Source: Thalassotalea sp. (GTDB taxonomy: Bacteria; Pseudomonadota; Gammaproteobacteria; Enterobacterales; Alteromonadaceae). From it: a stretch of DNA of 34,956 bases. A program made the translations under genes and the position numbers. Under the pieces are notes generated by a model. It saw only the letters and a program-made list of their open reading frames with translations, did no database searches and was not told where the DNA came from. Below are positions 9,604-27,396 of the stretch, one piece after another. Numbering within the stretch: position 1 is the first letter of the stretch; each line of letters begins with the position of its first letter. The stretch spans positions 1 through 34,956 of the forward strand of contig JAQWHO010000070.1 of the NCBI GenBank assembly GCA_029249355.1, in the 5' to 3' direction.

Positions 9604-11223
9604 ATGAAACGACTCATTAGTGCTGCGCTACTCCTCGTTGCTCATCAAGCTATTTCACAAACAATTGTTTTAAAAAACATCAATGTGCTTGATGTCAAAA
9701 ATCTTACCGTAAATCAACAGCAAACTATTGTAATTAAAGATAAACATATCATAAGTGTCGGTAGGAAAGGCTCATTAACAATTCCAGAAAATGCGATTGT
9801 TTTTGATATGACAGGCAAATATGTATCTCCGGGGTTAATAGACAGTCATGTTCATCATGCTACCGATCCCGACGGCTTTGATAATGACAGGGATTCGCGT
9901 AAACGATTAAGAACATTAATACGTGGTGGTGTTACTTCTGTGCGTGATATGGGGGGAGATACTCGAGCCTTAAATTCACTAGCGCGCAGAGCAATGTTAG
10001 ATCAAATACAATCGCCTGATATTTACTATTCTGTGATTATCGGCGGCGCTGAATTTTTTGCAGATCCTCGAACAGTTTCTTCTGCTAAAGGCATGAAGTC
10101 TGGCAATACTCCTTGGATGAAGGCCGTTGATGATGAAACCGCTCTTGATCAGGTAATGCTTATGGCCAAAGGTACAGGTGCAACAGGTATAAAAATATAT
10201 GCGAAAGTGCCTGGTCACCTTATGGAAAAACTATCAAAGGCAGCTAAAAAACATCAATTGAAAGTGTGGTCACATGCTTATGTTGGACCTGCGAAACCAA
10301 GTGAAGCAATTGCAGGGGGTGTTGAAACTATTTCACATGCACCTGATTTAGCCGCAGAAATTATTGAAAACTATGAAAATTGGCGTAGAAAGAATATTGA
10401 GCCAAATGCAGAACAAGAAAAACGTTCTTATAATGAGGATGAATATCAAAGGCTTTTAGCTCTTATGAAGCAAAAAGAAACGATTTTGGATGCAACATTG
10501 ACTGTATTTGAAAAACGTAAAAATTCATCAAAAAATAGCGAAAAGCGTTATCAACATGCAAAAATGTTGACACGTTTATCGCATGAAAAAGGTATTAAAA
10601 TTTCGGCGGGAACTGATGCGTTTAGCGATGAAGAAGTTCAGCTATACCATGAATTAACATTATTAGTTGAAGATGCAGGACTAACGCCATTTGAATCTCT
10701 GCAAGCGGCGACGATTCATGGTGCTGAAGTCATTGGTATTGAAAATGAGTATGGCTCAATTGAGAAAAATAAAATTGCCAATCTTGTTGTCTATAACGAA
10801 AACCCTAGTGAGAGCTTATCAGCACTTACGTCAATTGCTCATGTAATAAAAAACGGTCAATTCATTTATCGTGGAGCAGACTCTAGGCTTCCTTTTATTC
10901 CAGCAAAAAAAGCAGCTGGTACATTATGGATGTCGGGGCAGCTCGGAAACCTTCCCGGTACAATGAAGCTGGCTGGTGAAACAATTGATGGGCAAATGCA
11001 TCAAACTATGAAGAATATTGGTTATGTTTTGCAAGAATACAATTTATCAATGGCAGATTTGACTAAATGCACTGTGATGTTAAGCGATATTAAGGATTGG
11101 TCGAAAGCGAGTGATATTTATAAGACGTACTTCACAGGCGCCTTACCAACAAGAAGTGCTTTTGCTGCAAGTGGTTTGGCATTAAATGCCAAAGTTGAAA
11201 TTGAGTGTTTTGCTGCTTTCTAG
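9604..11223 (+). CDS. Exported amidohydrolase (imidazolonepropionase-like) fused to a C-terminal RidA/YjgF domain
   Basis: Signal-like MKRLISAALLLVAHQAISQ; metal-site motifs DSHVHH, GIKIYAK, WSHAY, ISHAPD, AGTDAF; C-terminal AAGTLWMSGQLG...QTMKNIGYVLQEYNLSMADLTKCTVML...PTRSAFAASGLALNAKVEIECFAAF is RidA-like. Confidence 0.88.
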   Translation: MKRLISAALLLVAHQAISQTIVLKNINVLDVKNLTVNQQQTIVIKDKHIISVGRKGSLTIPENAIVFDMTGKYVSPGLIDSHVHHATDPDGFDNDRDSRKRLRTLIRGGVTSVRDMGGDTRALNSLARRAMLDQIQSPDIYYSVIIGGAEFFADPRTVSSAKGMKSGNTPWMKAVDDETALDQVMLMAKGTGATGIKIYAKVPGHLMEKLSKAAKKHQLKVWSHAYVGPAKPSEAIAGGVETISHAPDLAAEIIENYENWRRKNIEPNAEQEKRSYNEDEYQRLLALMKQKETILDATLTVFEKRKNSSKNSEKRYQHAKMLTRLSHEKGIKISAGTDAFSDEEVQLYHELTLLVEDAGLTPFESLQAATIHGAEVIGIENEYGSIEKNKIANLVVYNENPSESLSALTSIAHVIKNGQFIYRGADSRLPFIPAKKAAGTLWMSGQLGNLPGTMKLAGETIDGQMHQTMKNIGYVLQEYNLSMADLTKCTVMLSDIKDWSKASDIYKTYFTGALPTRSAFAASGLALNAKVEIECFAAF

Positions 11224-12968: not shown

Positions 12969-13736
12969 TCACTCAACTAACTCTAATATGTCAAAAACAT
13001 CGGCAGTAATATAACCTAAATTCTTTTCACCATTTACAGGAGTGATAGGGGTAGAGCCTACAAAGTGTTCACGCTCTTTACTGCCATCATTATCACAATA
13101 GGCGAGCATAAATCCGAGTTTCTTACCTTTAAATAGTTTAACTGGCTTGCCTTTGAACTCTTTTTTATTTTCAATGGTTTGGTAAGTTAAGCTGTCATCA
13201 TAAACATCAATGGCCATCTCCCAAGTAACAACATGCGGTGCATCTTTATTTCTCTGCCATTTATTTTTGATATGGTCATTCAGTGTTAAAAAATCAGGTG
13301 AGCCATCTGAATTTTTATAACCAATATCAACAGATTGATTATCTAACGCAACATGATAAGCAAAAGCATTAAAGTTAAATTGATGATTACCGCCGGAAGC
13401 GTCTTCATCGATAAATACTTCAATACAATCATCATCCCAATAAAAATGCAGCGGATCAGCATGTTGGTCAAAAAGAATATCGTCGGTAATTTCAACTAAT
13501 AAGTAGAGCTTTTCTTCGTCCCAAATTATTTTAAAACGTCCAGAAAAATCTTCAGGGCTTAAAGCTTCACCTAAAATAAGTTCATTTAAAGGTTGCCATT
13601 GAGCTAATGCCCAAGCCTTATCTATAGATTTTCCATCGATAGTGGGTGCAACGTTTGTTTTTGGTGCTGTCATTGCTAAAACATTGGGTATGCTTAAAGC
13701 GTACAATAATGACGTGATGAAAACTAAGGCTTTCAT
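12969..13736 (-). CDS. Exported CBM9-like carbohydrate-binding protein
   Basis: 255 aa; signal-peptide-like N-terminus; APTIDGKSIDKAWALAQWQPL, FKIIWDEEKLYLLVEITDD, WDDDCIEVFIDEDASGGNHQFNFNAFAY, VTWEMAI. Confidence 0.8.
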   Translation of the reverse strand: MKALVFITSLLYALSIPNVLAMTAPKTNVAPTIDGKSIDKAWALAQWQPLNELILGEALSPEDFSGRFKIIWDEEKLYLLVEITDDILFDQHADPLHFYWDDDCIEVFIDEDASGGNHQFNFNAFAYHVALDNQSVDIGYKNSDGSPDFLTLNDHIKNKWQRNKDAPHVVTWEMAIDVYDDSLTYQTIENKKEFKGKPVKLFKGKKLGFMLAYCDNDGSKEREHFVGSTPITPVNGEKNLGYITADVFDILELVE

Positions 13737-14257
13737 TTTCGATCTCTCTGTTTCGTTAGGAAAATAATAGATTGCTTTATTATACTTTCAATTGATTGAT
13801 TAATAGCGATTAATTCTATATTTTCGTGATTGTTTTTATTAGGCAACTCAAGTTCTTCAAATTGACTATCCAGTAATGTTTCAGGAAAGAAATGTCCTGT
13901 TCTATCGACTATGCGTCGGATAATTATCGCTTTTTCACCATAAAGAAAAATACCACTCAATGATCTATCTAAATCGTGAAACCGTTGTCTTTGTGATTTT
14001 TTCAAACCAGAATAAGCCAAGACAAAACGGGCATTATTATGATGTTCATCGGCAAGAAATAATAAAATACGAGTGATCCATGCTTGACGAATTTCATCGT
14101 TAATCGGCTGACCATCCGCCATCATTCTTTTAGCTTGTTCACTATGGAAGTCATCAGCATCAAGGTAAATATAGTTAAGTTGTTCGGCAAGCGATTCGGC
14201 TATGGTGGATTTCCCTGTACCACTAACACCCATCACTAAAATTAACTCTGCTGGCAT
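13733..14257 (-). CDS. gntK: Gluconokinase
   Basis: 174 aa; LILVMGVSGTGKSTIAESLAEQLNYIYLDADDFHSEQAKRMMADGQPINDEIRQAWI is the characteristic gluconokinase N-terminus; 4-bp overlap with downstream CBM9-like gene. Confidence 0.85.
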   Translation of the reverse strand: MPAELILVMGVSGTGKSTIAESLAEQLNYIYLDADDFHSEQAKRMMADGQPINDEIRQAWITRILLFLADEHHNNARFVLAYSGLKKSQRQRFHDLDRSLSGIFLYGEKAIIIRRIVDRTGHFFPETLLDSQFEELELPNKNNHENIELIAINQSIESIIKQSIIFLTKQRDRK

Positions 14258-16629
14258 ATTTGGCCTTCACTATTTCCTAGTGTTATATCTATATTGTAGA
14301 TTTTACCTTTAACGATATCGGTAATTATATTTGACGCTGATAATTTACCATCAACAATAACTTTAGTTGCTTCTGTGTTTTCATCTCTAGAATAATTCAC
14401 TTTAAACGTTGCGCCTAAAAAGTTACGTTCTACAGTTAATGACGGCCATTGCGATGGAAATTTTGGTGAAATAATAAGTTTTCCTGCCTCACCTTTTAAG
14501 CCACAAAGTTCTTCAATGATACAGCGATAATACCAAGCAACTGTTCCGGTATTGAATAATTGACTTGATTTACCAGCAACCTCAGGCATTTGAAAATATG
14601 CGCCACGGTAGTAGTTAGGCACAAAAGTTGGTAATTGCTGACGTGTTGAAATATCGTCTTTATTGGGAAGCATTTTAAGTAAAACATCAAACGCTTTATC
14701 GTACTGATTATTTTGATAAAGACTATAAGCGTAAAATGCGGCAGCATGATTATAAACCGAGCCATTTTCAGAAACACCGGGGAATTTTTGTGTCAGTCGT
14801 CCGACATTTTCATGCATTTTTGTGTAACTAGGCGCAAGCATCATGATGCCAAAAGGGGTGGCAAGATTTTCGTCAATTGCCGAAAGCACTATTTGTTGTT
14901 GTTTTGTATCTGCGGCGCCACTTAACATCGCCCATGTTTGAGGGTTTAGATATATTTTACCTTCTTCATCACTTTCTACACCGAAAGCGACACCATTATC
15001 ATTTATACCTCTTGCATACCATTTTCCATCCCAAAAATGTTCGTTCATCGCGTTATTGAGGGTATCAATGGCGGCTAAGTATTCAGGCAATTTTTCTTGA
15101 TTGATTTGGTGTTGTTGGCAAATATTACACCATACTTTTAACGAATAGGCGGTAGCAACGGTTAACCAAGCAGAAACACCTTTACCTTTATAGCCCACCA
15201 TATTCATAGGGTCACACCAATCACCTTGCTCAATAAAACTTAAGCCCTGTTCATTTCGAGCATTGAGTAAGTAGTCAAGGGTAAGGTTGATGTGCTCAAC
15301 CAGCGGTAAACATTGCTCAGAATCTGAAAAAGGAATGTCAGACGTTAAAATATCGTTGTCATTTGTTTCACTTAAATAACATTGCAAACAAAGTGTTAAC
15401 CAAATTCCATGATCGCTATGTGGCACCAAATTGATGTATTTAAGTTCAGCCTGTTCATGCAATAAAATTCCGTCGGGCATCGCACCAGAGATTAATTGTT
15501 GTGAAAGGGCAGTTATTAACGCTTTTTTCGTTTTTTCTGGTGCAATAAAAGCCATACCCATGGCATCTTGTAAGTAATTTCGGGTTTGTGGATCTGTCGA
15601 TAAACGATTGACATCACCATGATAAAAAACTTGCCTTGGTAGCCAATGATTAACAAATTCATTAAAGGCTTTATCTGGTGAAGTCACGCTAATGCTTCCT
15701 TCTCCTTGCGATAAATACTCTTGGTAATCAAGCCGAGCCTTATTAAAGCGATCTGGCTGAGCAAAGTACTTTTCTTTAATGTCTGCTATTTCATGATCAT
15801 TATTTGCTGGGCCAAAGAGAAATTGATGTTTTATTTGCTCTTGGCAGTTTAATTGATGATTAAATTGCAAAGCGGCTAACGGTGTTTGATACAGTGCTTT
15901 TTGCTGTGGCAGTTGACTAAATTGCAACGCGTCAGGATTATGCAAACCACCTTCACCTTCAAAAACAGGCTGATTTGCGCACCAACTGGTAGGTTGATGT
16001 TTTGTTAATAAAAACGTTTTGTCTTTTAAATGTTTATTTTTAAAGTAATCTTCTACTTTTTGATAAGGGGTAATACTACTAGCGACAATGCCATTTAATG
16101 CTCTATCAAAATCAGCAGATTGATTCATCCATGACATGTAGCCGATAGTAAAGTATGGGTATATCGCAATATTCCTTGTTTTTTCACTATGACTAATAAT
16201 GCTAAGTTCCCACATTTCTACCACATCATTTTTGGGTAGTGACAAACTTAATTGAATTTCTAATTCTAAATGATTAATGCGCCAAATTAGGTTGTCTTTG
16301 CCGACTGAAAAATTAAACGATCCGAGCTTAGACCTAACTGGTTCATAAGGGATTGAGAATAATTCACCTGAATCTAAACATTTAATATAGAAGAACCGGC
16401 CACTATGATGAGCAAAATAACTTTGCTCAGGTTGCATAAAGGTTTTAGCTTCCATATTAAGTGCATGTGAATACTTACTTGGTTCTGGTTGCATAAATTG
16501 GGCAACAGAATAACCGCGACAATTCATGTGGATCATCATGTTTTTATTCCATAAAAAGCCACTGGCTTGCGACATTTTTATCGGGTCGGAGATATCAACA
16601 CGCTGGTTGATAAAATCATGTTGAAACAT
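14242..16629 (-). CDS. GH94-type glycoside phosphorylase; candidate cellobionic acid phosphorylase
   Basis: 795 aa; GRFFYIKCLDSGELFS, NYLQDAMGMAFIAPEKTKKAL, MPDGILLHE, SDHGIWL, EQGDWCDPMNMVGYKGKGVSAWL, GVSENGSVYNHAAAFYAYSLY. Overlaps gluconokinase start by 16 bp. Confidence 0.82.
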   Translation of the reverse strand: MFQHDFINQRVDISDPIKMSQASGFLWNKNMMIHMNCRGYSVAQFMQPEPSKYSHALNMEAKTFMQPEQSYFAHHSGRFFYIKCLDSGELFSIPYEPVRSKLGSFNFSVGKDNLIWRINHLELEIQLSLSLPKNDVVEMWELSIISHSEKTRNIAIYPYFTIGYMSWMNQSADFDRALNGIVASSITPYQKVEDYFKNKHLKDKTFLLTKHQPTSWCANQPVFEGEGGLHNPDALQFSQLPQQKALYQTPLAALQFNHQLNCQEQIKHQFLFGPANNDHEIADIKEKYFAQPDRFNKARLDYQEYLSQGEGSISVTSPDKAFNEFVNHWLPRQVFYHGDVNRLSTDPQTRNYLQDAMGMAFIAPEKTKKALITALSQQLISGAMPDGILLHEQAELKYINLVPHSDHGIWLTLCLQCYLSETNDNDILTSDIPFSDSEQCLPLVEHINLTLDYLLNARNEQGLSFIEQGDWCDPMNMVGYKGKGVSAWLTVATAYSLKVWCNICQQHQINQEKLPEYLAAIDTLNNAMNEHFWDGKWYARGINDNGVAFGVESDEEGKIYLNPQTWAMLSGAADTKQQQIVLSAIDENLATPFGIMMLAPSYTKMHENVGRLTQKFPGVSENGSVYNHAAAFYAYSLYQNNQYDKAFDVLLKMLPNKDDISTRQQLPTFVPNYYRGAYFQMPEVAGKSSQLFNTGTVAWYYRCIIEELCGLKGEAGKLIISPKFPSQWPSLTVERNFLGATFKVNYSRDENTEATKVIVDGKLSASNIITDIVKGKIYNIDITLGNSEGQICQQS

Positions 16630-16638
16630 TGTTAAACC

Positions 16639-17991
16639 TTACTCGCTTTCATTGGATAATAATTTACGTTTAGCTAAATCGTCTTGAATATCTATTACAG
16701 CCTTATCAGATAGTGAATAAAATTTAACGACAAATACCGAAAGGGCAGCAAAGCCGGCAGGGATTAAAGTCATTAACAGAACAATACCTGTTTGAGAATC
16801 ATGGTTTTGCACTTGGTTGGCAATATAGCCCATTGATGCTAATAACCAGCCGATCATCGCTCCTGCAATTGCTCCACCTAATTTTTGCGCAAAGGCGGCG
16901 GCAGAAAAAACCATCGCAGTTGCACGACGACCATGTTTCCATTCAGAAAAATCAGCTGTATCTGCATACATAGAAAATACCAGCGGAGACTTTGGCCCTA
17001 ACGTAAAGCCAATCGCTATTTGTAGTATGTACATCAGCATTATTTGATCTTTAGGCACAAAATAAAAAAGTACCGATAAAATAGTTACCGCTGTCATCAG
17101 TATCATTAAAAGACGGCGCTTATCGATAAATTTAGTCATGATGGGTGTTGACGCAGCGCCCACAGCTAAAGCAATCATATAAGCAAAAGAAAAACTGCCG
17201 ATAAGGTCTTCTCGTTCAACGAAGTACTTAAAATAAAAAGTCCCTGTACTACCTCTTAAGGAGATTGTCATCATAATGATCAGGGCAAGACTAAACAAAA
17301 TGACCCACGGTCTATTTTGGGTTAAGTCTTTGATGTCTTGTAAAATAGGGGTCTTTTGTTCTTTTGGGGGGGCAATACGCTCCTTGGTACTTAAGAACGT
17401 AATTGCAAATAATATTGCGGCAATACCACCGTATAAGCCCATGGTGAGTTGCCAGCCAAAGGCTTCATTCCCTTGACCAAAATACTCAACTAATTTTGGT
17501 GTTAAGTACGCAACTAAACTACCGCCTGAAAATGCACCGATAAAACGAAAGCTCGTTAATGTCGTTCTATCTTGGCTGTTACCAGTAACTACTCCTAGTA
17601 ATGCTCCGTATGGGACATTAATAAAGGTGTAAGCGAGCATCATAAAAATATAAGTAGCATATGCCCACATTAGTTTGCCGCTGTCATCGAGATCAGGAAC
17701 CGTAAAAGTTAATACACCGGCTGCAGCAATAGGAATAATACCCCAGAGTAGGTAAGGACGGAATTTACCAAATTTCGTTTGTGTACGATCAGCCAAGGCG
17801 CCCATTAATGGGTCAGAAAATGCGTCTATTAAACGCGTGACTAACATCATGGTACCAACCGCAGCGGGGTGTAAACCAAATACATCGGTGTAAAAGATAA
17901 AGAGAAAAACATCAAAAACGCGCCAGTAAAAGTTTGATGCGACATCACCGCATGCATAACCGACTTTTTCTTTAAGTCTTAAACTCGCCAT
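16639..17991 (-). CDS. GPH (glycoside-pentoside-hexuronide) family MFS sugar transporter
   Basis: 450 aa; KVGYACGDVASNFYWRVFDVFLFIFYTDVFG, DPLMGALADRTQTKFGKFRPYLLWG, ADTADFSEWKHGRRATAMVFSAAAFAQKLGGA. Confidence 0.92.
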   Translation of the reverse strand: MASLRLKEKVGYACGDVASNFYWRVFDVFLFIFYTDVFGLHPAAVGTMMLVTRLIDAFSDPLMGALADRTQTKFGKFRPYLLWGIIPIAAAGVLTFTVPDLDDSGKLMWAYATYIFMMLAYTFINVPYGALLGVVTGNSQDRTTLTSFRFIGAFSGGSLVAYLTPKLVEYFGQGNEAFGWQLTMGLYGGIAAILFAITFLSTKERIAPPKEQKTPILQDIKDLTQNRPWVILFSLALIIMMTISLRGSTGTFYFKYFVEREDLIGSFSFAYMIALAVGAASTPIMTKFIDKRRLLMILMTAVTILSVLFYFVPKDQIMLMYILQIAIGFTLGPKSPLVFSMYADTADFSEWKHGRRATAMVFSAAAFAQKLGGAIAGAMIGWLLASMGYIANQVQNHDSQTGIVLLMTLIPAGFAALSVFVVKFYSLSDKAVIDIQDDLAKRKLLSNESE

Positions 17992-18052: not shown

Positions 18053-18066
18053 TGAAAGCGCTTACA
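18053..18066. promoter_or_regulatory. LacI-type operator
   Basis: TGAAAGCGCTTACA, one mismatch to the TGTAAGCGCTTACA palindrome; 62 bp upstream of the GPH gene start. Confidence 0.8.
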
Positions 18067-18231: not shown

Positions 18232-18245
18232 TGTAAGCGCTTACA
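18232..18245. promoter_or_regulatory. LacI-type operator
   Basis: Perfect palindrome TGTAAGCGCTTACA upstream of the TonB-dependent receptor. Confidence 0.88.
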
Positions 18246-18297: not shown

Positions 18298-18311
18298 TGT
18301 AAGCGCTTACA
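18298..18311. promoter_or_regulatory. LacI-type operator
   Basis: Perfect palindrome TGTAAGCGCTTACA, second copy upstream of the TonB-dependent receptor. Confidence 0.88.
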
Positions 18312-18368: not shown

Positions 18369-21300
18369 ATGAAAACATTTAAAAAATCTCAAATAGCTAC
18401 CAGTTTATCGGTGGTTTTAGGCATGGGAGCATTGAGTTTAGTTCATGCTCCAACTGCATTTGCAGCAGAAAATGCAGAGCAAGAAATTGAAGTTATTGAA
18501 GTTACGGGTATCCGTGGTTCTTCAAAAGCAAGCATAAACGGTAAGCGCTTTGCTGATTCTCAAGTAGATGGTATTGCTGCTGAAGACATTGGTAAATTAC
18601 CTGATGTAACTATTACAGATTCACTACAACGTATTTCAGGTGTTCAAATTGAACGTGTTGCAGGTGAGGGTGGACCGGTACAAATTCGTGGTTTACCTCA
18701 AGTAGACACCACAATGAATGGTGAAACATTCTTATCCGCTACAACAATTGATACTGCTGCTGCCGATTTAGGTGATTTACCAGCACAGTTATTTGGTGGT
18801 GTTGATGTATATAAATCGGCAACCGCTGGAAACGTAGCACAAGGTATCGCCGGTTCAATTGATCTTAAAACACGCCGCCCATTTGATATGGATGAAGGTT
18901 GGACATTCGCTGGTGGTGTTGAAGCTACTCGTGGTTCAATTACCGAAGAAACAGATCCTACATTACATGGTTTAGCATCATATAATAACGGCAAAATTGG
19001 TGTATTAATTTCTGCTGTCACCCAAGAAGCTACGTTAGCAACCGATTATAATGGTCATAACGATACGTCTGAAAATGGCGGAATCGGTTGGACTCAAAAT
19101 AACCATGCTTGGGGCGAGCCAAGTGAAGGTGGTGACGTTTATACAATCGTACCTCATGGTTTTACGGCTTTTAACAAAACAGAAGAACGCGAACGTGATG
19201 CTCTACAACTTTCTGTTCAAGCTGATTTAGACGATGGTTTTGTTTTAACGGCTGATTATTTCTATACACAGCAAGACCGTTTTAACAATCGTTCTGGTTT
19301 TAACCATAACAACCGCTGGCAAACATATAACGAATACGCGTATGCAACAAATTATACAGGCGATTCGTTTACAGATGCTAATGGTAATCCTTGGAAAGCT
19401 GCTGACGCATACAAAATGAATCCTTACCGTATGCAAACATTCACACAAGTAAACGTGAATGAGGAAAAATCACAAAACTTTAACCTTCAGTTAGATTTTG
19501 ATAATGGTGGAGCGTTAACAGGTCAAGTTCGTGCAACTCATGCTCGCGCGACAGCTAAAATGCGTCATGCATATGGTGAAGGTGATTTACTTAGCATTGA
19601 TGAAGGTTCACGTGTTTTAGGCCCAGGTGGTTTTAACCCATCACAATACTGTACAAATGGCGAAGAAATCATTGGCTCTGAAGGTGGTTGTAATGCTCAG
19701 TATTCTACAGGTATTGAAGACCCTAATTTCCAATTAACATATGATGCTCGTGGTTCACATCCAGCATTTGGTGGTTTCGATCAGCAAGTACTAGGCGGAA
19801 AAGGCATGATGTCAGTTGCTGACTACATGGCTGATCTTGATTCTTACCACATTGGTGCGTTCTCTTCTGAAGGTAATACAGACGATGAAGGTAAATTATC
19901 TACATTTAGCACCAAGTGGAACTATGCATTAGATGATCATGACTTCATTACGAGCGTTGATTTTGGTGTGCGTTTTAGCAAACGTGAAGTTGACCATGAC
20001 CAATTCACTTATACTTCTACTTTTGGTAATGGTTGTGATATCGCACAGTGGAAAGCGGTTGATCAACAATACGGCCCAGATTGTGAAGGGCAAGCAGGTA
20101 CCGGTGAATATGTAACTGATGATGAAGGTAACGAAGTTTGGACTCCTTATACATTGTTAGGACCTACAGCACTTGATCAACATACTACCGTTTCTTGGCA
20201 GACTGATTTTGGTGGTGTAACGGGTATTCCAGGTATTTGGGTGATTGACCCAGAAAACTTCCGTGACCCTAAACAATGGCATAAAGATACTTTCGGCAAT
20301 GTTGCACGTACTGAAAATGGTGGTGCTACCTATGATGTTGGCTTAGATGAAATCTCGTATTTCACACAAGTTAACTTCGATTATGAAGCATTAAGCGGTA
20401 ACATTGGTCTTAAAATCATTCAAACTGATTTATTTGTTAAGCAAAACTTAGTGGGTCCTAACTTACCTCACTCAGGTTTAGGTCCAGATATCGGTGATGT
20501 GGTTACAGAACGCAGCTATACAGATGAATTATTGTCAATGAACTTAGCATATCAAGCTTCAGATGAAGTTGTGTTACGTGCAGCATACTCTGAAAACATG
20601 CAGGCATTAAATTTAAGTCAATGGGGTGCGGGTAAAACTGTAGGCTCAGTATTTAATAATGATTGTAACTGTATGCGTGTTCAAAACGGTTCATTAAATG
20701 GTAACCCTGAGCTTGACCCATGGCGTTCAGAGAACTACTCACTTTCTGCTGAGTGGTATGCTGGTGATGCATCAATGTTTTTCCTTTCAACATACGGCAT
20801 TGACATTGAAAGCTTTACTGAAGGTTCAACTATCATGATTGATGAGCCTGATTCAGATGGTGTTCGTCGTGGTCCACATCCTTTCTCTGCTAACATTCAA
20901 GGCGTTGGTGGTGATGTGTCAGGTTACGAAATTGGTGGTAAAGTTGCATTCAGTGACTTCCTAGGAGAAGACAGCATATTAGCAAATGTAGGTATGGATA
21001 TTAACTACACATATGCTGACAGCTCTCAAGAAAGTAAAGGTATTGATGGCGATGACTTACCGTTTGGCGGCATGTCGAAAGATACTTACAACGCGGTTGT
21101 ATGGTATGAAGATGATATGTTCTCAGCTCGTTTAGCATGGAACTCTCGTAGCCCACGCCTAATGTCTGGCGGTAATGCTAACACAGGTAATCAAGCACTT
21201 TATCAAGATGACTATTCGCAACTTGATTTCAATGCTACATATGACTTCAATGAAACAGTTAGCTTCTATGTTAACGGTTCAAACATTACTGAAGAAATTC

Positions 21301-21389
21301 AACAGACTTATATAGAGTTTTCTAAGCAAAAAGCTTTCCAAAACGTATATGAAGCACGTTGGACAGTAGGTGCTCGAGTATCTTTCTAA
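18369..21389 (+). CDS. TonB-dependent receptor (TIGR01782-like, carbohydrate type)
   Basis: 1006 aa; signal peptide, EVIEVTGIRGS, EDIGKLPDVTITDSLQRISGVQIERVAGEGGPVQIRGLPQVDTTMNGE, C-terminal ...EARWTVGARVSF beta-strand. Confidence 0.93.
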   Translation: MKTFKKSQIATSLSVVLGMGALSLVHAPTAFAAENAEQEIEVIEVTGIRGSSKASINGKRFADSQVDGIAAEDIGKLPDVTITDSLQRISGVQIERVAGEGGPVQIRGLPQVDTTMNGETFLSATTIDTAAADLGDLPAQLFGGVDVYKSATAGNVAQGIAGSIDLKTRRPFDMDEGWTFAGGVEATRGSITEETDPTLHGLASYNNGKIGVLISAVTQEATLATDYNGHNDTSENGGIGWTQNNHAWGEPSEGGDVYTIVPHGFTAFNKTEERERDALQLSVQADLDDGFVLTADYFYTQQDRFNNRSGFNHNNRWQTYNEYAYATNYTGDSFTDANGNPWKAADAYKMNPYRMQTFTQVNVNEEKSQNFNLQLDFDNGGALTGQVRATHARATAKMRHAYGEGDLLSIDEGSRVLGPGGFNPSQYCTNGEEIIGSEGGCNAQYSTGIEDPNFQLTYDARGSHPAFGGFDQQVLGGKGMMSVADYMADLDSYHIGAFSSEGNTDDEGKLSTFSTKWNYALDDHDFITSVDFGVRFSKREVDHDQFTYTSTFGNGCDIAQWKAVDQQYGPDCEGQAGTGEYVTDDEGNEVWTPYTLLGPTALDQHTTVSWQTDFGGVTGIPGIWVIDPENFRDPKQWHKDTFGNVARTENGGATYDVGLDEISYFTQVNFDYEALSGNIGLKIIQTDLFVKQNLVGPNLPHSGLGPDIGDVVTERSYTDELLSMNLAYQASDEVVLRAAYSENMQALNLSQWGAGKTVGSVFNNDCNCMRVQNGSLNGNPELDPWRSENYSLSAEWYAGDASMFFLSTYGIDIESFTEGSTIMIDEPDSDGVRRGPHPFSANIQGVGGDVSGYEIGGKVAFSDFLGEDSILANVGMDINYTYADSSQESKGIDGDDLPFGGMSKDTYNAVVWYEDDMFSARLAWNSRSPRLMSGGNANTGNQALYQDDYSQLDFNATYDFNETVSFYVNGSNITEEIQQTYIEFSKQKAFQNVYEARWTVGARVSF

Positions 21390-21864: not shown

Positions 21865-23115
21865 TTAATTCTGTTGAGGCTTATAACCTTTCAAGCCGTA
21901 GTACATGATAAATACGTAGCATACTATTGGTAAAACAAATGAGATTTGTAAACCAATTGTATCGGCTAAAAGTCCTTGTAAATAAGGAATAATTGCCCCA
22001 CCAACAATCGCTAAACATAAAATACCCGAACCTTGGCTGGTATGTTCTTTCAGGCCATTAATTGCTAATGTGAATATTGTTGGAAACATAATTGAATTGA
22101 ATAAGCCAATAGCTAGCACAGCCCACATTGCGATAGCACCAGAAGTAAAAATGGTGATTAACAATAAAACAATGGCAGCCGCGGCATTAAAAGCCAACAC
22201 TTTTCCTCCTGCTATTTTTTGCATTACTGCAGCACCAATGAATCGACCAACCATAGCGCCACCCCAGTAATAAGCGATGTATGTTGCTGCAACTGATTCT
22301 TCCATCGCGGCAATAGTAGGTTCAGCGAAAAAGTTAACAAGAAAGCTACCAATGGCCACTTCAGCGCCAACATAAACAAAAATCCCAATAGCGCCTAATA
22401 CTAAGTGACTGTATTGCCATGCACTGCCAGACACCTCAACCGTTTGAGTTGTTTGTTGATGCTCAATATTAGGTAATTTTAAGTAGGCAAAAATAGCCGC
22501 TAAAATAAGTAGCATTCCCGCTAGAAACAAATAAGGCATTTGCACTGATTCAGCTTGTTGAGCTTTTGAAACCGCTTCTGCCGCTTCGTTTAATATTAAG
22601 AGCGCACCAAAAAAAGGGGCAACTGTTGTTCCTAATGAATTGAACGCTTGTGTTAATGTTAATCGCGATGAAGCAGTCGCTGGGTTTCCTAGAATACTGA
22701 CATAAGGATTAGCCGAAACTTGTAGAACCGTGATACCACTTGCCAAAATGAATAATGCAAATAAAAATACAGGATAACTTTGCATTGATGCTGCAGGATA
22801 AAAAGTCATACAACCAAAAGCCGCAATTACTAACCCGAGCACAATACCTCTTTGATAGCCTAATCTTTTCACTAATGCGCCAGCGGGTAATGACACGATA
22901 AAATAGGCGCCAAAAAAGCAAAATTGTACGAGCATCGCTTGGCTATAAGATAAATCAAATATACCTTTTAAATGAGGAATTAAAATATCATTCAAACAGG
23001 TGATAAACCCCCACATGAAAAATAAAGAGGTGAGTGAAGTTAAGGCAAAAGTATAATTACCGTCTTGACTCTGATTGTTGTTTTCTTGCGCTACGCCAGC
23101 GATACTTGCCGCCAT
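21865..23115 (-). CDS. FucP-type sugar:H+ symporter (glucose/galactose MFS)
   Basis: 416 aa; [94 protein letters not shown]. Confidence 0.92.
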
Positions 23116-23251
23116 AAATTCTCCTAATATAGTTAACTTTTTGTTTGTTTAATTATTATTCGTTAATAACTTTCTATGAGATTAGAACATAGACTATCTC
23201 ATTATTAATTAGCTGTTGATCTTTTATTTGATTCAATCTAATATTACAAAA

Positions 23252-23265
23252 TGTAAGCGCTTTCA
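23252..23265. promoter_or_regulatory. LacI-type operator
   Basis: TGTAAGCGCTTTCA, one mismatch to the palindrome, in the divergent region between the sugar MFS and GH1 genes. Confidence 0.82.
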
Positions 23266-23367
23266 TTTATACCACGTTAAAATAAAAGTGCAACAATTTG
23301 CATACGTATGTTTGCACCGATTTTGTAAAAGCTTTGCTTAACTGTTGAAAAGGAAACTTGAGATAAT

Positions 23368-24699
23368 ATGACTTTCTCACTACCAAAAAACTCTCCGATG
23401 CGTTCATCGTCATTTTTATACGGAGTGGCTACCGCATCATTTCAAATTGAAGGGGGAGTAGAAAATCGCTTACCTTGTATTTGGGATACTTTTTGTGCAA
23501 CAGCAGGAAAAATTGAAGACGGTTCAAATGGCGATGTAGCTTGTGATCATTTTAACCGCTGGCAAGATGATGTTGAGCTGATCAGTTCATTTGGTGTCGA
23601 CGCATATCGTTTATCTATTTCATGGCCTCGGGTGATCAAACAAGACGGTAGTGTTAATCAACAAGGCATGAGTTTTTATATCAATTTACTCGATGAATTG
23701 AATGCAAAAGGCATAAAACCTTTCGTGACTTTATATCATTGGGATTTACCACAATACCTTGAAGATAATGGTGGATGGCTAAATCGAGAAACGGCCTATA
23801 AATTTCAAGAATACACCAAACATGTTGTCAACGCTTTTGGTGACCGCGTACACGCATATGCGACACTAAATGAACCGTTCTGTAGTGCATATTTAGGCTA
23901 CGAAGCGGGTATTCATGCGCCGGGTTTAGTAGGGAAAGAATACGGGAAAAAAGCGGCACATCATTTACTTTTAGCACATGGCTTAGCCATGCAAGTGTTG
24001 AATGAATTAAGCCCAAATACCTTAAACGGTATTGTCCTAAACTTTACTCCAGGTTACGCGCTTTCTGATTCTATTGAAGACAAAGAAGCAACAAGAAAAG
24101 CCAACGAATACTTTAATTACTGGTACTCAAAGCCTGTATTTGATGGTGAATATCCTGAGCTAATAAACGAGTTACCAGCAGAGCATCGTCCAGAAATTCT
24201 TGATAATGACATGGAAGTCATATCCCAGCCGATGGACTTTTTAGGTATCAATTTTTATACCCGAGCAAGATATAAAGCGCACCCAACTGAAATGTTTGAA
24301 GAAATCATCGTTGAAGGGGTAGAGCGCACCGATATTGGTTGGGAGATCTATCCACAAGCTTTTACGGATTTATTAGTCGATTTAGATACTCGCTACGACT
24401 TACCGCCTGTTTATATTACTGAGAATGGCGCATCAATTGATGATGAAATTGAAAACGGAGTAGTGAACGATGTCCGTAGAATTGACTACTACAACAAACA
24501 CTTAAATGCGGTTAACGATGCGATAAGTAAAGGCGTTAATGTTCAAGGGTATTTTGCTTGGAGCTTAATGGACAATTTTGAGTGGGCCGAAGGCTACTTA
24601 AAACGTTTCGGCATCGTTTATGTTGATTATCAAACACAAATACGTACAGTTAAGGCAAGTGGCTTAGCGTACAAAAAGTTATTGAGTGAGCGCGATTAA
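23368..24699 (+). CDS. GH1 family beta-glucosidase
   Basis: 443 aa; FLYGVATASFQIEGG, DVELISSFGVDAYRLSISWPRV, acid/base motif TLNEPF, nucleophile motif ITENGA, GYFAWSLMDNFEWAEGY. Confidence 0.96.
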   Translation: MTFSLPKNSPMRSSSFLYGVATASFQIEGGVENRLPCIWDTFCATAGKIEDGSNGDVACDHFNRWQDDVELISSFGVDAYRLSISWPRVIKQDGSVNQQGMSFYINLLDELNAKGIKPFVTLYHWDLPQYLEDNGGWLNRETAYKFQEYTKHVVNAFGDRVHAYATLNEPFCSAYLGYEAGIHAPGLVGKEYGKKAAHHLLLAHGLAMQVLNELSPNTLNGIVLNFTPGYALSDSIEDKEATRKANEYFNYWYSKPVFDGEYPELINELPAEHRPEILDNDMEVISQPMDFLGINFYTRARYKAHPTEMFEEIIVEGVERTDIGWEIYPQAFTDLLVDLDTRYDLPPVYITENGASIDDEIENGVVNDVRRIDYYNKHLNAVNDAISKGVNVQGYFAWSLMDNFEWAEGYLKRFGIVYVDYQTQIRTVKASGLAYKKLLSERD

Positions 24700-24753
24700 T
24701 TGCCAACGAGTAAATATCTCCATTAAATAATTATAAGAAGAAGGTATAAAATA

Positions 24754-26286
24754 ATGCATAAGCTTTCGTTGTTTGAAAAAGTCGGTTACGCAACGGGTGA
24801 CGCTGCCGCAAACTTAGTATGGCGAGGTGCATTAGCTTACTTAGCGGTGTTTTATACTGACACTTTTGGCTTAACGGCTGCTGCCGCCGCCATGTTATTT
24901 TTGGTGGTGCGACTTTCTGATGGTGTTACTGACATTATCATGGGGATGATTGCTGATAGAACCGACACTAAGTGGGGCAAGTTTCGCCCATGGATTCTCT
25001 GGTCAGCGCCATTTTTAGGTTTGTTTATGGTGCTATGTTTTACCACGCCAGATCTGTCTGAAAATGGTAAATTAATTTATGCCTACGTCACATATATTGG
25101 TTTAACACTCGCTTATACCATCAATAATGTTCCTTATTCTGCTTTGATGGGCGTTATGACACCAAGTGATACTGAACGTACTAGCTTGTCAGGATTTAGA
25201 TTTGCTGGCGCTTTTGCTGGTGGTTTACTGGTTATGGGCTTTTTACCTGATTTGGTTGCCTACTTTGGCGCCGGCGACGACGCGGTAGGTTATCAATACA
25301 CTATGTACCTATTTGCTGGCTTGTTAATTGGCTTAATGGTGATCACATTCGCTTCAACTAAAGAACGTGTTACACCAAAAATTGATGAAACATCTTGTTT
25401 AAAAACAGAATTATTCGATTTATCTAAAAACCTCCCGTTTATTATTTTGCCTTTATTGGCGATGACCTTATTCTTTTATTATCGAGAACTTTACAGCGGA
25501 ATATTTTTCTTTGCGGTAATGACTGGGATGTATGTAGTGATCAAACGTTTGATCAATCAATCAACAGAAAATATGACGGGCACACAACGAGATATGGTCG
25601 ATCTATTAACCAATAAACCTTGGTTAATATTATTAGGCATGGGCTTTTTAACCATGATGTTTAACGGCATTAAATATGGCGTTATTGCCTATTATTTTAA
25701 ATATCATGTGGCGGATGAATTAATGGCCGGTAAATATTTTATCGCTTTGTTATTGGTGTCTATTCTTGGTGCATTATGTACAAGTTATTTAGCCAATAAA
25801 TTTGGCAAAATTAAATTATTTATAATCGCGTTAATTATTAGTGGCTTATTAACGGGAGCACTTTATTGGGTACCAAAAGGCGATATTGTTGTTCTTTTTT
25901 CACTCGGCTGTGCCGCTGAATTTTTTGCGGCGATGATGCCCACATTATTTTTTACCATGCTGGGCGATTCTGCTGATTATTCAGAGTGGAAAAATGGTCG
26001 TCGTGCTACGGGCTTAGTGTATTCAGCAGGCACTTTTGTGCAAAAAACAGGAGGAGGTTTTGCCGGTGCATTAGTATTGGTTGTGTTAGCAGGCTACGGC
26101 TATAACGGTATGGACCCTGCAACTATCGAAGCTTCATTGCCTGGTATGCAGTTATTGATGAGTTGGATACCTGCTGCATTTGCTTTTGCGGGCGCAGCAT
26201 TAATGTTGTTTTATCCATTAACGACTCAGCTAAACAAGCAAGTGAGTGAAGATCTTATTCAAAGAAGAAAAGCTTCTGCTCATTAA
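24754..26286 (+). CDS. GPH family MFS sugar transporter with enlarged central region
   Basis: 510 aa; KVGYATGDAAANLVWRGALAYLAVFYTDTFG, DRTDTKWGKFRPWILW, GDSADYSEWKNGRRATGLVYSAGTFVQKTGGG. Confidence 0.92.
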   Translation: MHKLSLFEKVGYATGDAAANLVWRGALAYLAVFYTDTFGLTAAAAAMLFLVVRLSDGVTDIIMGMIADRTDTKWGKFRPWILWSAPFLGLFMVLCFTTPDLSENGKLIYAYVTYIGLTLAYTINNVPYSALMGVMTPSDTERTSLSGFRFAGAFAGGLLVMGFLPDLVAYFGAGDDAVGYQYTMYLFAGLLIGLMVITFASTKERVTPKIDETSCLKTELFDLSKNLPFIILPLLAMTLFFYYRELYSGIFFFAVMTGMYVVIKRLINQSTENMTGTQRDMVDLLTNKPWLILLGMGFLTMMFNGIKYGVIAYYFKYHVADELMAGKYFIALLLVSILGALCTSYLANKFGKIKLFIIALIISGLLTGALYWVPKGDIVVLFSLGCAAEFFAAMMPTLFFTMLGDSADYSEWKNGRRATGLVYSAGTFVQKTGGGFAGALVLVVLAGYGYNGMDPATIEASLPGMQLLMSWIPAAFAFAGAALMLFYPLTTQLNKQVSEDLIQRRKASAH

Positions 26287-26319
26287 TTCATGTAAAATGC
26301 GGCATCCAAGATATTTAAC

Positions 26320-26357
26320 GGATAAAGATTAACGATATATATTGTTCATCTTTATCC
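26320..26357. repeat. Long near-perfect palindrome in the 5' leader of the lacI-type gene
   Basis: GGATAAAGAT-T-AACGAT-ATAT-ATTGTT-C-ATCTTTATCC: 16 of 17 arm positions pair (one as G-T), no flanking U-tract. Confidence 0.75.
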
Positions 26358-26394
26358 AAATTACCTTTAAAGGAAATAATCCGATAGGGAAATT

Positions 26395-27396
26395 ATGGCA
26401 ACCATTTATCAAGTTTCTGAATTAGCAAAAGTATCACTTGCGACTGTTTCTCGAGTGATGAATGGTAATGCTCGTGTTAGCGAGAAAACACGCAACCGTG
26501 TACTTTCAGCAATGAAAGAGCTAGATTATCGCCCGAATACTATTGCCCAATCTTTAGCGTCAAATCGTAGTAATTGTATCGGATTGCTGGTTTCTGAAAT
26601 TCATGGTCCATTTTTTGGTCAGATGATGAGTGGCGTTGAAACTGAGCTTCGCGCGGCAGGCAAACATGTCATTATTACTACCGGCCACAGTGAAGAAGAT
26701 AAAGAAAAAGACGGTATAGAATTTTTAATTAGTCGTAATTGCGACGCCATTATTTTACATGTTGAAGCCGTAACAGATGAGTATTTGCTTGAATTAAGTA
26801 AAGGTAAAACGCCTATTTATCTTATCAGCCGCCATGTTGAAGAAATGCCTGATAAATGTATTAGCTTAGACAATGAATTAGGTGGTTATATTGCCACTCA
26901 ATCATTGATTGAAATGGGGCATACCAATATAGCGTATTTAGCGGGGCCACAATATAAAGCCGATGCTATTGCTCGTTTACAAGGGCATAAAAGGGCGCTT
27001 TCAGAAAATAATATTGCAATTGATGAAAAGTTGATTTTCGAAGCTGAGTTTAAAGAGGCAGGTGGTATTGAAGGCTTACGCCACTTTTTGCGAGAAAAGG
27101 CTGAATTTTCGGCGTTAGTTTGTGGCAATGATGAAATGGCTTCCGGTGCCATGACTTATGCTCGAGAGCATAATTTGCAAATGCCAAAAGATTTATCGGT
27201 AATCGGTTTTGATAATGTTGTGTTTGCGCCGCACTTATATCCTAAATTAACAACAGTAGAAAACCCTGTTAATAAAATGGGTGCCATGGCAGCAAAATTA
27301 GTGCTGAAAGATGTATACCAACAAGATCAACATGACATTCAGCAATTATTTGAACCTAGCCTTATTATGCGCGACTCTGTTGCTGTATTAACTTAA
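26395..27396 (+). CDS. LacI/GalR family transcriptional regulator
   Basis: 333 aa; YQVSELAKVSLATVSRVMNGNARVSEKTRNRVLSAMKELDYRPNTIAQSLAS followed by a periplasmic-binding-like effector domain. Confidence 0.95.
   Translation: MATIYQVSELAKVSLATVSRVMNGNARVSEKTRNRVLSAMKELDYRPNTIAQSLASNRSNCIGLLVSEIHGPFFGQMMSGVETELRAAGKHVIITTGHSEEDKEKDGIEFLISRNCDAIILHVEAVTDEYLLELSKGKTPIYLISRHVEEMPDKCISLDNELGGYIATQSLIEMGHTNIAYLAGPQYKADAIARLQGHKRALSENNIAIDEKLIFEAEFKEAGGIEGLRHFLREKAEFSALVCGNDEMASGAMTYAREHNLQMPKDLSVIGFDNVVFAPHLYPKLTTVENPVNKMGAMAAKLVLKDVYQQDQHDIQQLFEPSLIMRDSVAVLT

Follow-up and report, generated by a model that had tools for sequence, protein, structure and literature searches.

Sequence comparisons point, with good confidence, to an operon for the uptake and phosphorolysis of cellobionate (4-O-beta-glucosyl-gluconate) under a BglR-type LacI repressor, in a window of 34,956 nucleotides (the whole stretch of DNA analysed here) from a marine Colwelliaceae bacterium whose genome assembly measures 3.47 Mb and is 84% complete. 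Oxidised cello-oligosaccharides are a main product of LPMO and dehydrogenase action. The route by which they enter bacteria is poorly known, the cellobionate importer of E. coli having been reported as unidentified (PMC4403981), and the locus provides a candidate importer with a testable residue as well as a predicted regulator whose operator is defined. The chemistry of the enzymes was known before; what we add is a conserved four-gene set that includes an exported CBM9 protein, a BglR-type operator in common, natural fusions of cellobionic-acid phosphorylase (CBAP) with gluconokinase (GntK), which are useful for engineering, and a transporter lysine. The literature searched, which left most subscription papers (key CBAP papers included) outside, held no description of the four-gene operon, of a switch common with beta-glucoside genes or of CBAP-GntK fusions.

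The operon consists of four minus-strand ORFs, encoding a GPH-family (MFS_2) symporter (16639..17991, 450 aa), a GH94 phosphorylase (14242..16629, 795 aa), a GntK/IdnK-type gluconokinase (13733..14257, 174 aa) and an exported CBM9-like protein (12969..13736, 255 aa). A 9-bp gap (16630-16638) is followed by overlaps of 16 bp (14242-14257) and 4 bp (13733-13736), exactly the packing described in the first-pass annotation, with which the ORF coordinates agree. Each of the four proteins passed a curated Pfam or NCBIfam cut-off, the GH94 and CBM9 proteins being matched in Pfam with no NCBIfam model match. The order GPH-CBAP-GntK-CBM9 recurred in about 24 sampled relatives; a CBM9-like homologue stood beside CBAP in 19 of 80 fetched loci, and more cassettes were seen in L095-L099 and L112-L114. 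Since both packing and gene order are kept in relatives, the arrangement is not a product of chance, and the packing suggests that the four genes are co-transcribed. Outside the cassette group, CBAP adjoins a GPH gene and is often near GntK and LacI genes; no GPH gene was seen at the Paenibacillus CBAP loci. As a separate observation, median identity among cassette members was 75% for the transporter, 58% for the CBM9 protein, about 55% for CBAP and 38% for GntK, the membrane carrier being slower to diverge than the cytoplasmic enzymes (CBAP and GntK).

The GH94 protein carries the Glyco_hydro_94 and GH94 supersandwich domains of Pfam (PF17167, PF06165). The first-pass annotation had taken it for a cellobionate-type enzyme rather than a cellobiose phosphorylase, and had proposed comparing it with characterised GH94 enzymes. 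Its best PDB match was 4zle (1014 bits over residues 9-784), which is the Saccharophagus degradans CBAP, Sde_0906 (PMC8950772), and the next matches, namely cyclic glucan synthase and chitobiose and cellobiose phosphorylases, reached at most 178 bits. Across 150 genomes of the family, GH94 proteins fell into two groups, CBAP-type at 827 bits or more (49 genomes) versus others at 180 or less. The carboxylate-binding residues of subsite +1 in SdCBAP, reportedly Q190, R609 and K613 in a 2015 JBC paper, were identical in 82 CBAPs (the window protein, SdCBAP and 80 further sequences), and H, E and Y replaced them in all six outgroup GH94 proteins aligned, which are cellobiose phosphorylases. The catalytic Asp motif is present in the window protein (GDWCD, Asp473), and at 218 columns that are near-invariant in other CBAPs the window clade differed at 15 only. 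A quick maximum-likelihood tree put all CBAPs, SdCBAP included, on one side of a long branch with full support; a placement outside this clade had been named beforehand as evidence against the assignment, and the window protein lay inside it, adjoining Colwellia sp. 1_MG-2023 and a Colwelliaceae MAG. By sequence, the GH94 protein is a cellobionic-acid phosphorylase.

The enzyme shares with the S. degradans CBAP (Sde_0906, Cep94B; PDB 4ZLE-4ZLI) the whole-length GH94 architecture, the Q/R/K acceptor site and the GDWCDPMN catalytic region, but it is 54% identical to it and belongs to another CBAP branch. Colwelliaceae CBAPs diverge fast (about 55% identity among members, compared with 75% for the transporter), and this, together with the 54% identity to the characterised enzyme, makes a shifted linkage or acceptor preference possible. 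A separate origin of the window CBAP, which is 57% like other Colwellia CBAPs, was considered and rejected, given that Colwelliaceae CBAPs differ mutually about as much.

The kinase scored 132 bits with TIGR01313 (GntK/IdnK; cut-off 113.75), conserves the P-loop and GntK motif residues, and had E. coli gluconate kinase (1knq) as its best PDB match, consistent with a predicted gluconokinase of the GntK/IdnK type. It is the sole protein over this cut-off in the 84%-complete genome. One-ORF CBAP-GntK fusions of about 961-1052 aa occur in eight genomes (L007, L012, L047, L095, L096, L097, L098 and L099) spanning several genera, with a long linker in L098; Psychrosphaera saromensis is one bearer of such a fusion. 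All five fusions that were scanned exceeded the gluconokinase cut-off within their C-terminal part; the L099 fusion is without the exact MGVSGxGK string of the other inspected fusions and was recognised solely by blast to the window GntK. On the tree, whose deep branches are weak, the distribution of fusions needs at least four changes. The fusion of CBAP and GntK in relatives is independent evidence that the two act in sequence, which favours gluconate as the released acid and bears out the earlier pairing of the phosphorylase with a gluconokinase. Further down the route, 6-phosphogluconate dehydrogenase (Gnd) is present in the window genome and in both congeners; Edd was over cut-off in both congeners, with no match over cut-off in the 84%-complete window genome. 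The same three-step logic of acid-disaccharide importer, phosphorylase and gluconokinase is found in the aldonate pathway of Neurospora crassa (CBT-1, CAP (NCU09425) and a gluconokinase), which differs in its fungal MFS carrier CBT-1, in having its genes outside any operon, and in having neither a CBM9 protein nor a TonB receptor; in yeast, a gluconokinase was required together with CBAP and a transporter (PMC4537572).

The first gene of the operon encodes a predicted inner-membrane cellobionate importer, scoring 398 bits with TIGR00792 (cut-off 231), whose orthologues, 75-80% identical, precede CBAP in relatives. All 63 CBAP-linked GPH proteins compared, whose hosts include gammaproteobacteria, betaproteobacteria and Flavobacteria among other groups, carry a lysine at the position of residue 334 of the window symporter, within a GPKSP motif. 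The neighbouring BglT-like GPH2 transporter and its orthologues have Met at this position (only four GPH2 sequences were compared), and an equivalent of Lys334 is absent from E. coli YagG, YicJ, UidB and MelB, YagG being annotated as a putative D-xylonate transporter. We regard Lys334 as a candidate carboxylate-reading residue, whose difference from GPH2 could be lineage-specific.

The last gene encodes a protein with a signal-peptide-like N-terminal stretch (recognised by eye) and a CBM9_1 domain (PF06452, 122 bits; cut-off 23). Its AlphaFold model (pLDDT 88.9) had its best fold matches among the CBM9 modules of Thermotoga maritima (CBM9-2, 1i82; E 8.3e-13) and C. kristjanssonii. A reading as a heme-binding DOMON domain was rejected because CBM9 modules rank first in the fold search (E 8e-13), the ethylbenzene dehydrogenase gamma subunit following far below (6e-5). 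Proteins of this kind form a 24-member family in the equivalent gene position. Trp71, a clamp residue of T. maritima CBM9-2 (PMC8280721), aligns with Trp100 of the window protein, which is invariant in the 24 relatives; for the clamp residue Trp175, no counterpart was located in the window protein by sequence mapping. The likeness to CBM9-2 of T. maritima Xyn10A (1I82) and to C. kristjanssonii CBM9.3 (PMC8280721) lies in the CBM9 fold and in the Trp71 position, whereas the window protein is free-standing and exported and CBM9-2 is a xylanase module. CBM9 modules favour the reducing ends of cello-oligosaccharides (PMC8280721), and the window protein may be a periplasmic sugar-binding component that takes cello-oligosaccharides or their acids, which is the weakest step of the proposed pathway.

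A search of all 3.47 Mb of the genome for the palindrome TGWAAGCGCTTWCA gave five copies (0 for a reversed-pattern control): three lie before the operon and a divergent TonB receptor gene, one before a BglR-type beta-glucoside cluster and one before a GH3 gene. Four copies are in the window, against 0.05 expected. The palindrome search placed these predicted LacI-type operators at 18053..18066 (TGAAAGCGCTTACA), at 18232..18245 and 18298..18311 (both TGTAAGCGCTTACA), and, for the copy between the GluP and GH1 genes, at 23252..23265. The fifth copy, on host contig C243 (L093; 5493-10290), precedes by 51 bp a gene for a GH3 beta-glucosidase-like protein, and the contig further encodes a GH5 endoglucanase-like and a tryptophan-halogenase-like protein. 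In relatives, the operator preceded the orthologous GPH gene in 22 of the 22 cases with upstream DNA.

Divergent from the operon, on the plus strand, lies the gene of a TonB-dependent receptor (18369..21389; TIGR01782, 474 bits), a predicted outer-membrane importer found in the equivalent place at 73-96% identity in L003, L004, L028, L064 and L111-L113. Outside the four-gene operon, the neighbouring Bgl cluster comprises genes for a GluP-type glucose permease (21865..23115, minus strand; TIGR01272, 410 bits) and, on the plus strand, a BglA-like GH1 beta-glucosidase (23368..24699; TIGR03356, 597 bits), the second GPH transporter, GPH2 (24754..26286; profile search and alignment), these three being predicted to be co-regulated, and a LacI/GalR-family regulator, the predicted BglR (26395..27396; profile search). 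This part of the window (21865-27396) resembles the Shewanella Bgl regulon, which likewise has divergent glcP and bglA-bglT-bglR, a TonB receptor and a LacI-type regulator, BglR; the window regulon is predicted to add the CBAP operon and the GH3 gene, no cellobionate branch being described in the accessible part of the Shewanella account (PMC2996990). Because TGWAAGCGCTTWCA is common to the operon, the Bgl cluster and the GH3 gene, the operon very likely belongs to a BglR regulon as one of its branches. Orthologues of the LacI protein lie beside the cassette in L007, L012, L095 and L099, with an identical recognition helix (SLATVSRV). On the basis of co-location and of this identity, the LacI protein is predicted to pair with TGWAAGCGCTTWCA, and the common operator, the Shewanella-like layout and the LacI orthologues beside cassettes lead us to predict that it controls the use of both cellobiose and cellobionate. 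The GPH2 and LacI genes are separated by a stretch that contains a spacer-free inverted repeat of 19 bp (26320-26357, 89% complementary), which may be an attenuator or terminator inside the Bgl operon.

In the route that we propose, the TonB receptor would bring the acid disaccharide into the periplasm, where the CBM9-like protein would bind it or related cello-oligosaccharides, and the GPH symporter would carry it into the cytoplasm. CBAP would then convert cellobionate and inorganic phosphate to alpha-glucose-1-phosphate and gluconate, GntK would turn gluconate into 6-phosphogluconate, and this product would enter the pentose-phosphate route (Gnd) or the Entner-Doudoroff route (Edd). A more ambitious reading, which we put forward tentatively and with more doubt than belief, is that of a complete bacterial cellobionate route from the outer membrane to 6-phosphogluconate, with a symporter reading the carboxylate through Lys334, a periplasmic hand-over by CBM9, a coupling of phosphorylase and kinase that is fused in several genera, a beta-glucoside repressor, and hosts without AA10 LPMOs that live on the oxidised cellulose of others.

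Other substrates would fit parts of this scheme. Equivalent chemistry could act on another beta-glucosyl-gluconate: a marine laminarin user may meet laminaribionate (beta-1,3) or gentiobionate, for example, more often than cellobionate. The distance of the window CBAP from SdCBAP in a fast-diverging lineage would allow this, a GntK fits it too, and the predicted co-regulation with general beta-glucoside genes leans the same way, a LamA beta-glucanase being included in the Shewanella Bgl pathway (PMC2996990). We nevertheless regard it as unlikely, given the kept acceptor-site residues, the small share of near-invariant columns that differ (15 of 218) and the GH5 endoglucanase-like gene on the contig of the fifth operator. 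That the substrates are glucosyl-uronic acid disaccharides, with a changed specificity of GntK, appears highly improbable: CBAPs reportedly took glucuronate as an acceptor in vitro in the 2015 work of Nam, and glucuronide carriers exist within the GPH family, but the kinase is over its family cut-off and is fused to CBAP in relatives, and no uronate-pathway gene was seen in the operon or among its neighbours. An ordinary cellobiose phosphorylase operon, which would suit the predicted regulator in common with the beta-glucoside cluster, can hardly be entertained. Two of the low-scoring GH94 proteins of the family are cellobiose phosphorylases, with 1163 and 1176 bits to the solved enzyme 8ho7 and 176 and 144 to 4zle, and the window protein is their mirror image; moreover, its acceptor residues differ from theirs at all three sites, and the glucose released by such an enzyme would not need a gluconokinase.

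For the preferred substrate, cellobionate, the first-pass annotation had suggested import and phosphorolysis of this acid or a similar aldonate, derived for instance from LPMO products; cellobionate-type phosphorolysis with a gluconate kinase is strongly supported, and the LPMO source is not supported for the organism itself. The 84%-complete genome and two congeners gave no AA10 LPMO, an absence that is weak for one incomplete MAG; the lack of association across 150 relatives is stronger, LPMOs occurring in 8 of the 49 genomes with CBAP and in 22 of the 101 without it (Fisher p 0.52). An LPMO of its own was therefore rejected as the acid source, and, as CBAP and LPMO genes are not linked within the family, aldonate consumers may be separate from producers. 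The acid probably arises through oxidation by other organisms or by a sugar dehydrogenase. Candidate makers of aldonic acids in the genome are a GSDH-family sugar dehydrogenase and two GMC oxidoreductases, of which one has a small subunit of the gluconate-2-dehydrogenase type; no tie between these genes and the CBAP regulon was seen. At L100 1143-3556, a gluconate-2-dehydrogenase-type small subunit adjoins a GMC oxidoreductase, a possible sugar-acid dehydrogenase of this genome. Elsewhere in the window, positions 9604-11223 encode a 539-aa protein that looks exported and joins an amidohydrolase to a RidA/YjgF-like (Ribonuc_L-PSP) domain.
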